In this document: positions 32,387-32,528 of the stretch, piece after piece
Layout: every line of letters starts with the position of its first letter
Numbering within the stretch: position 1 is the stretch's first letter
Source: Glycomyces sp. YM15
GTDB lineage: Bacteria; Actinomycetota; Actinomycetes; Mycobacteriales; Micromonosporaceae
Direction: 5' to 3'
DNA length: 64,000 bases
Assembly (NCBI RefSeq): GCF_016918015.1
Contig: NZ_JAERMK010000019.1
Span: 53,828 to 117,827, forward strand
Translations under genes and position numbers: made by a program
The notes under the pieces: generated by a model
Seen by the model: the letters and a program-made list of their open reading frames with translations, nothing else
Told to the model about the DNA's origin: nothing
Database searches by the model: none

Positions 32387-32450
32387 GAGGAGGGAAGATC
32401 GCTTTCGCTGTGGGAGTTCGCCGCTTCGGGGCGCGGCGCTGCAGGGACCC
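32387..32450 (-). promoter_or_regulatory. Leader between cysteine-rich peptide and metN
   Basis: 64 bases containing a small hairpin on the minus strand (GCCGC ... GCGGC) and ending CCCTCCTC just before the metN ATG. The CCTCC sequence is complementary to a ribosome site rather than being one. It is probably the folding platform for leader-peptide control. Confidence 0.45.
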
Positions 32451-32528
32451 TCAGCAGGCGCACATTCGGCAGCACGGCATCGCGGCGCGGGTCGCGTCGC
32501 TGATGATGTCCTGGTGCTGGCCGTTCAC
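32451..32528 (-). CDS. Cysteine-rich leader peptide upstream of metNIQ
   Basis: A 25-codon ORF from a GTG at 32528, ending MPCCRMCAC then TGA; four of its last seven codons are TGC. An internal ATG at 32480 would give just that nine-residue end. Cysteine-rich leader peptides upstream of sulfur-assimilation genes are known in actinobacteria, where ribosome speed through the Cys codons reports cysteinyl-tRNA supply and sets downstream expression. Here the next gene, metN, lies 64 bases away and lacks a normal ribosome site. Regulation is inferred from the layout; the peptide itself is read directly from the sequence. Confidence 0.75.
   Translation of the reverse strand: MNGQHQDIISDATRAAMPCCRMCAC

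Follow-up and report, generated by a model that had tools for sequence, protein, structure and literature searches.

In a window of 64,000 nucleotides from Glycomyces sp. YM15 (the whole stretch of DNA that was analysed, on contig NZ_JAERMK010000019.1), the region 32565-32419 upstream of the metNIQ operon was studied. It carries a short open reading frame (ORF) with an end rich in cysteine (Cys) and methionine (Met) codons, an invariant CGA-ATG codon pair, a kept spacing and a hairpin with a covarying stem, and in relatives it is associated with metN. Comparison of these sequences suggests that this conserved leader element probably is a leaderless, ribosome-sensed attenuator, which would raise MetNIQ when the charging of Cys- or Met-transfer RNA (tRNA) falls. 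Its parts are the following.

32560..32565, minus strand: -35-like hexamer TTGGCG, read from the sequence, 17 bases before the -10-like hexamer
32537..32542, minus strand: -10-like hexamer TTGACT of a predicted leaderless promoter, by sequence comparison, placed 8 bases 5' of the leader GTG
32451..32528, minus strand: leader ORF, 25 codons plus TGA, GTG start, MNGQHQDIISDATRAAMPCCRMCAC
32454..32474, minus strand: regulatory-type tail TGC TGC CGA ATG TGC GCC TGC
32463..32468, minus strand: CGA-ATG codon pair
32448..32452, minus strand: GAGGG overlapping the stop codon; GGG (32450-32448) with T32447 is the proposed pseudoknot 5' strand
32419..32438, minus strand: hairpin CGCCGC-GCCCCGAA-GCGGCG; GCCC of the loop (32432-32429) is the proposed pseudoknot 3' strand

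The leader ORF comprises 25 sense codons from GTG (32528-32526) to TGA (32453-32451), and its end reads ATG CCG TGC TGC CGA ATG TGC GCC TGC TGA. Four of the seven final sense codons are TGC, the peptide tail is CCRMCAC, and the stop codon is separated from the metN ATG at 32386 by 64 bases (32450-32387). An original prediction on this DNA had described exactly this arrangement, and the sequence confirms it. Because the reading frame stays open far 5' of the GTG in the window genome, the start of the leader can be fixed by comparison only. A metN search over 61 genomes gave 21 loci of the same genus with 81-100% identity, and the leader was found at all 21 of these orthologous loci, by which a chance ORF is ruled out and the check in relatives that had been proposed with the prediction turns out positive. 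All 21 leaders are exactly 25 codons long with the start codon at a shared position (ATG in 13, GTG in 8), and in 11 of them a stop codon in the same frame precedes it by no more than 10 codons. The genome of the window contains a single copy of the element. No match to described peptide families was obtained, either for the leader peptides in NCBIfam or for one leader peptide in Pfam.

The regulatory character of the ORF is seen in its tail. Depending on the clade, Cys makes up 24-34% and Met 11-23% of the last ten residues, which are thus enriched in every clade, and elsewhere in the peptide the two reach at most 5% and 7%. Cys is the commonest tail residue in each clade. In Glycomyces, the last ten codons hold a mean of 4.5 Cys and Met codons in frame versus 1.1 and 0.0 in the other frames; over all clades the values are 4.5-4.6 in frame versus 1.1-2.0 and 0-0.6 out of frame. 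Typical tails are CCRMCAC in Glycomyces, CMCRMCAF or CMCRMRAF in Streptomyces and CMCVRRMCER in Actinomadura, and in other genera of the family we found MPACCRMCAS and the Met-rich MCACMPMGMRMCGI, the latter in locus L024. Two TGC codons stand side by side in the window and in the majority of Glycomyces, an exception being L021 with RC, and Streptomyces has C-M-C.

To compare loci, 86 distinct ones were reduced to 78 distinct cores by leaving out identical cores (51 from Streptomyces, 18 from Glycomyces, eight from other members of the family and one other). The CGA-ATG pair is present in 78/78 cores, taken from loci picked by a pattern that itself contains CGAATG, and in 27 of 28 further strong matches from model searches that made no such demand. 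In metN itself, CGA accounts for only 3-10% of the arginine (Arg) codons, i.e. 19/612, 22/227 and 58/1757 by clade. CGA is fixed in the leader though rare in metN, which points to a constraint on the codon or on the RNA. The ATG is fixed in all 78 cores, whereas 69 cores retain the Cys codon preceding CGA and 65 the one that follows ATG.

From this ATG to the GGG of GAGGG, which is likewise present in 78/78 cores, 64 cores have a distance of 15 bases, 12 have 16 and two have 12. The 12 cores with a spacing of 16 are those ending in TAG rather than TGA. Among the 80 of 119 loci listed from a scan of named genomes, the spacing is 15 in 52 and 16 in 28, and in a further 31 regions that were counted separately (28 strong and three weak matches) it is 16 in 18, 15 in eight and 12 in one. 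L198 of Catellatospora has its stop one codon earlier and still a spacing of 15; thus, the ATG-GGG distance seems to be kept more closely than the stop codon.

At the RNA level, the hairpin loop is GCCCCGAA in 76 of the 78 cores and the stem covaries. Stem pair 4 is T-A in 50 cores, C-G in 25, T-G in two and mismatched in one, and stem pair 5 is C-G in 51, G-C in 23, T-G in two, A-T in one and mismatched in one. For stem pairs 4, 5 and 6, the observed pairing was not reached by any of 2000 shuffles, which ignore relatedness; pair 6 pairs in just 34 of the 78 cores, and the pairing at pairs 8 and 9 was no better than in the shuffles of these cores. Stem changes are also found within clades (L023 and L024, and L127, L136 and L140 in Streptomyces). 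The base following GGG is C in 69 cores and T in nine, and a helix between GGGY and the GCCC of the loop is possible in all 78. Together with the stem, it would give a proposed, unproven H-type pseudoknot whose first loop measures 9-24 bases and whose last loop is CGAA. An alternative helix of GYGYG (the end of the ATG, the Cys codon and the next G) with CGCGC of the hairpin would be possible in most sequences; its partner side is almost invariant and it is unproven as well. RNAalifold gave no supported long-range structure on the leader-to-metN alignments (covariation term +0.94 in Streptomyces, -0.1 in Glycomyces). At gathering score, Rfam reported two tRNAs only in the window and no match in eight related loci.

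The element is widely distributed before metN. The leader is present in 21 of the 22 Glycomyces genomes searched; G001, the sole genome without it, has no metN orthologue, its best ATP-binding cassette (ABC) ATPases showing ~43% identity. Within the family, 200 genomes were searched with a strict pattern and 30 matched, 28 of them before metN. The two remaining matches (L031, L033) were rejected as chance matches, and g4 and g51, the two other genera with the most genomes sampled in the family, gave no true match to this pattern. Covariance model R2 matched 33 of 345 genomes of the class, namely the own genome, 31 Streptomyces and one other, as well as 56 of 61 Streptomyces genomes. These Streptomyces form the genus group g132, assigned on the grounds that its leaders agree with those in named Streptomyces genomes. 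Among the five unmatched Streptomyces, G781 and G803 show no close metN match, G768 and G809 have the metN match at a contig end, and G773 keeps the leader with a decayed RNA part. The full element is found in 27 of the 28 further strong matches (the exception is L279) and is absent in the three weak ones. Model R1, run on 298 genomes of the order, matched 33 times (nine strong, 24 weak), and the full element is missing from all 22 of the weak loci that were read, L309 included. A pattern search of the class matched 12 of 246 genomes: the own genome, four Streptomyces with the full element, the leader-like L091 and six in other settings.

In the named genomes, the 80 of 119 loci listed comprise 74 from Streptomyces, four from Actinomadura and one each from Glycomyces and Catellatospora, so among the loci listed four orders are represented according to NCBI taxonomy. 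A MetN-like gene follows in 68/68 checkable loci of these 80, as established by pattern for 63 and by reading for L198 and the four Actinomadura loci; the 12 others are too close to an edge for a check of the downstream gene. These four Actinomadura loci (L172, L178, L191, L207) all carry a second small conserved frame, M[DNI][FI]QRHLLS[NH]APYPPG.., between the element and metN.

Some leader-like frames were observed in other surroundings. L091 and L320 (G578) have a frame ending CCRMCR with CGA-ATG and no hairpin, which stands behind TTGACA and CACAAT hexamers and before a gene for a winged-helix protein. Similarly, the weak R1 locus L079 (G364) has a frame ending HCRMCCC in which CGA-ATG is present and the hairpin absent.

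Upstream of the ORF, a TTNACT-like hexamer lies 6-9 bases 5' of the start in 84 of 86 loci, the choice of start having itself been aided by the hexamer, and TTGG of the -35-like hexamer is kept in most aligned loci. As judged from the sequences, the spacing of the TTNACT-like hexamer fits a leaderless transcript. Upstream of the promoter of Streptomyces leaders (L097, L099, L102) there is also an inverted repeat GTCCG / CGGAC, possibly a repressor site.

The stretch between the hairpin and metN differs among the clades and includes one further conserved feature.

32399..32408, minus strand: GCGAAAGCGA, between hairpin and metN, kept in 21/21 Glycomyces loci

In the window, the bases directly 5' of metN are CCCTCCTC, without a purine-rich, ribosome-site-like run. 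By a simple motif test, such a run is present before metN in 0 of 21 Glycomyces loci, in 7 of 8 from other genera of the family and in 50 of 56 from Streptomyces. The original prediction, according to which metN has no ribosome site and is preceded by CCCTCCTC, is hence borne out for the ribosome site, in the window and in the other Glycomyces loci. The sequence CCCTCCTC does stand in the window, but it is not a conserved part: just one of the 21 Glycomyces loci has it, the run at this position being pyrimidine-rich throughout and variable in sequence, and CCCTCCTC was rejected as a conserved anti-ribosome-site. From hairpin to metN, Streptomyces has a median of 176 bases. The spacer is C-rich and G-poor, and its median rank within the locus is the 95th percentile for Streptomyces and the 98th for Glycomyces. 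No U-tract terminator was found at 32300-32660, and in this the hairpin is unlike that of a classical attenuator with an intrinsic terminator. On visual inspection, T-rich bases follow the hairpin in L022, and L024 shows a further hairpin followed by six T between hairpin and metN; the latter looks terminator-like and was not reported by the scan, which had a loop limit of 8.

We propose that transcription would start at the leader's own start codon, something reported for Streptomyces lividans only, and that a ribosome would then read the Cys/Met tail. When Cys and Met are plentiful, the ribosome would finish and leave, and GGGY, now free, would form the H-type pseudoknot by base-pairing with the loop's GCCC. 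This form would lower expression, and the sign of this effect is the weakest step of the proposal. As a first guess, lowering would most likely proceed through premature termination of the Rho type within the untranslated C-rich stretch, which is favoured because no U-tract terminator is seen and the spacer is C-rich and G-poor. When Cys or Met is scarce, the ribosome would come to a halt on the tail, its leading edge close to GAGGG, so that the pseudoknot would be blocked and metNIQ would be made. Considering the size of a ribosome footprint, the RNA structure lies at leading-edge distance from the tail. Imported methionine would serve as a sulfur source for both amino acids. With the Met codon more nearly invariant and Cys more abundant, we infer that methionine and cysteine are both the signal. 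More tentatively, the CGA-AUG among the Cys codons could possibly act as a ruler of ribosome position, setting the starved ribosome 12-16 bases from the GGGY:GCCC pseudoknot; the element would then represent a class of dual-amino-acid, pseudoknot-gated attenuators spread over four orders. If true, methionine import would be tied to cysteine as well as to methionine supply.

In the original prediction, metNIQ answers to cysteine supply through the leader, and what stands of this is a regulatory-type leader ORF before metNIQ. A cysteine-only attenuator of the mycobacterial kind, in which the contiguous Cys codons sense and Met and the RNA structure are incidental, would agree with the abundance of Cys in every tail and with L279, where Cys is retained without Arg-Met, and leaderless poly-Cys ORFs of mycobacteria are reported to act in this manner (PMC9031893). 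We regard a purely cysteine signal as unlikely, since the ATG is more constant than the Cys codons at its sides, Met-rich tails occur, and hairpin and spacing are conserved. Somewhat less unlikely is an effect on metN translation or on decay of the messenger RNA, whereby the leader structure or a stalled ribosome would alter access to the metN start. Such control is a real rival in Glycomyces, the spacer being short: metN lacks a ribosome-site-like run at all 21 loci and, in the window, begins 64 bases past the stop codon of the leader. The missing U-tract terminator is also in line with it, as is the mycobacterial case, described as translation control (PMC9031893). Yet Streptomyces metN lies far past the hairpin and mostly has a purine-rich run before it, and the leader-to-metN alignments revealed no conserved pairing that involves the start region of metN.

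Pseudoknot riboswitches are known, e.g. SAM-II, and the strong invariance of CGAATG, GAGGG and the GCCCCGAA loop could be expected of a small riboswitch binding methionine, S-adenosylmethionine or another metabolite, with the ORF incidental. This is very improbable: the ORF is conserved in its start, frame and Cys/Met content, the length of the first loop ranges between 9 and 24 bases, and Rfam gave neither a family at gathering score nor anything credible at a permissive threshold. Known riboswitches were rejected on these grounds.

Several observations weigh against the ribosome-sensed attenuator as well. The first part of the leader peptide has no third-position bias and lends translation no support, which is as expected for a leader whose product is unimportant. 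A generic sigma-70 scan reported no promoter at the leader. Regarding the RNA, the pseudoknot helix is invariant save for C or T opposite G, so that covariation gives no proof of it. RNAalifold, a program unable to represent pseudoknots, places GGY opposite the GYC of Cys/Arg codons in the majority of 22 sequences. Four of the 78 cores and four of 27 further matches have one stem mismatch. L312 (G773) retains the leader and has lost GAGGG and hairpin, and L279 (G804, Streptomyces) keeps three Cys codons with Arg-Met lost and the loop shorter. Finally, C-richness of the spacer reaches just the 75th percentile in eight other family members, and the Glycomyces spacer of ~32 bases is short for Rho.

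The leader itself is of an already known kind. In 2021, a metL leader (SLIV_29928) was named before metNIQ in S. lividans TK24 (PMC8079986), so the statement in the original prediction that no case before a methionine-type ABC transporter was known is superseded. According to the accessible portion of that paper, metL (MSTTSDRTPATEATTTPGARCMCRRMCAF) is leaderless, 29 residues long and called methionine-dependent, and its authors saw no typical Rho-independent terminator and considered termination unclear. Position before metNIQ and type of tail are alike, CMCRRMCAF-type in metL versus CCRMCAC in Glycomyces, where the leader is shorter and Cys-richer. The leader L220 of S. coelicoflavus (MSTTSDRTPATEATTTPGARCMCLRMCAF) is one residue from metL and has the full element. 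In its description, as far as the text of PMC8079986 is accessible, metL is methionine- (and threonine-) rich, cysteine is undiscussed and no conserved RNA structure is given.

Other systems share some of these properties. The leaderless poly-Cys ORFs of mycobacteria (Canestrari 2020) are attenuators whose control is described as translational (PMC9031893); common to both are a short, leaderless-type ORF, Cys codons and a sulfur-related operon downstream. Unlike these ORFs, the element has Met and an invariant CGA-ATG, a hairpin and proposed pseudoknot at fixed distance, and a methionine-import target. A study of 2005 (PMC1262725) reported cys leaders and a LEU pseudoknot; in the part available, it gives no conserved RNA structure upstream of methionine operons. 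Its LEU element, from actinobacterial leuA, resembles ours in having a leader peptide with regulatory codons, a proposed pseudoknot and no typical terminator (PMC1262725, same part). The LEU base stem pairs regulatory codons with a Shine-Dalgarno box, whereas metN in the window, as in 21/21 Glycomyces loci, has no such box. In the open-licence literature, as far as its texts were accessible, no description of the RNA part (hairpin and spacing), of the conservation across orders or of the Cys content was found. The RNA part is new-looking, the regulatory tail holds two amino acids instead of one, and a leader annotated in S. lividans turns out to be common to Glycomyces, Streptomyces, Actinomadura and Catellatospora, with an RNA part unmatched in Rfam. 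Leaders of the tnaC and mgtL type are Rho-dependent attenuators, and in the element, too, the position of the ribosome on the leader ORF would decide downstream termination; an arrest peptide and a Rho site belong to the tnaC/mgtL kind. If it works as proposed, the element would offer a tractable test of terminator-less actinobacterial attenuators, whose mode of action was named as a gap in 2005 for the cys and leuA leaders (PMC1262725). In S. coelicolor, metNIQ and cysteine genes go up together under oxidative stress (PMC4991794), in line with a signal from both amino acids.

The downstream operon consists of three genes.

31619..32386, minus strand: metN, ABC ATPase without C-terminal NIL domain
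30969..31622, minus strand: metI, permease
30103..30936, minus strand: metQ, NlpA/MetQ lipoprotein

Judged from sequence, the MetNIQ substrate is probably methionine rather than a cysteine compound. The cysteine-related substrate suggested in the original prediction finds no backing: nothing points there, and the solved relatives of MetQ, an NlpA lipoprotein, include MetQ proteins. A cysteine-type transporter was rejected from the MetNIQ protein comparisons. Methionine is convertible to cysteine in such bacteria, and because of this the Cys codons make sense without a cysteine substrate.

The NIL domain is the C-terminal methionine-binding domain of E. coli MetN. It is absent from MetN of the window and of L022, and present in MetN of L024 and L101 behind the same leader. 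On the other side of the leader, a divergent gene for an M16-type peptidase starts at 32656, and a tRNA-Trp (CCA) gene lies immediately 3' of metQ (29939-30012, minus strand).
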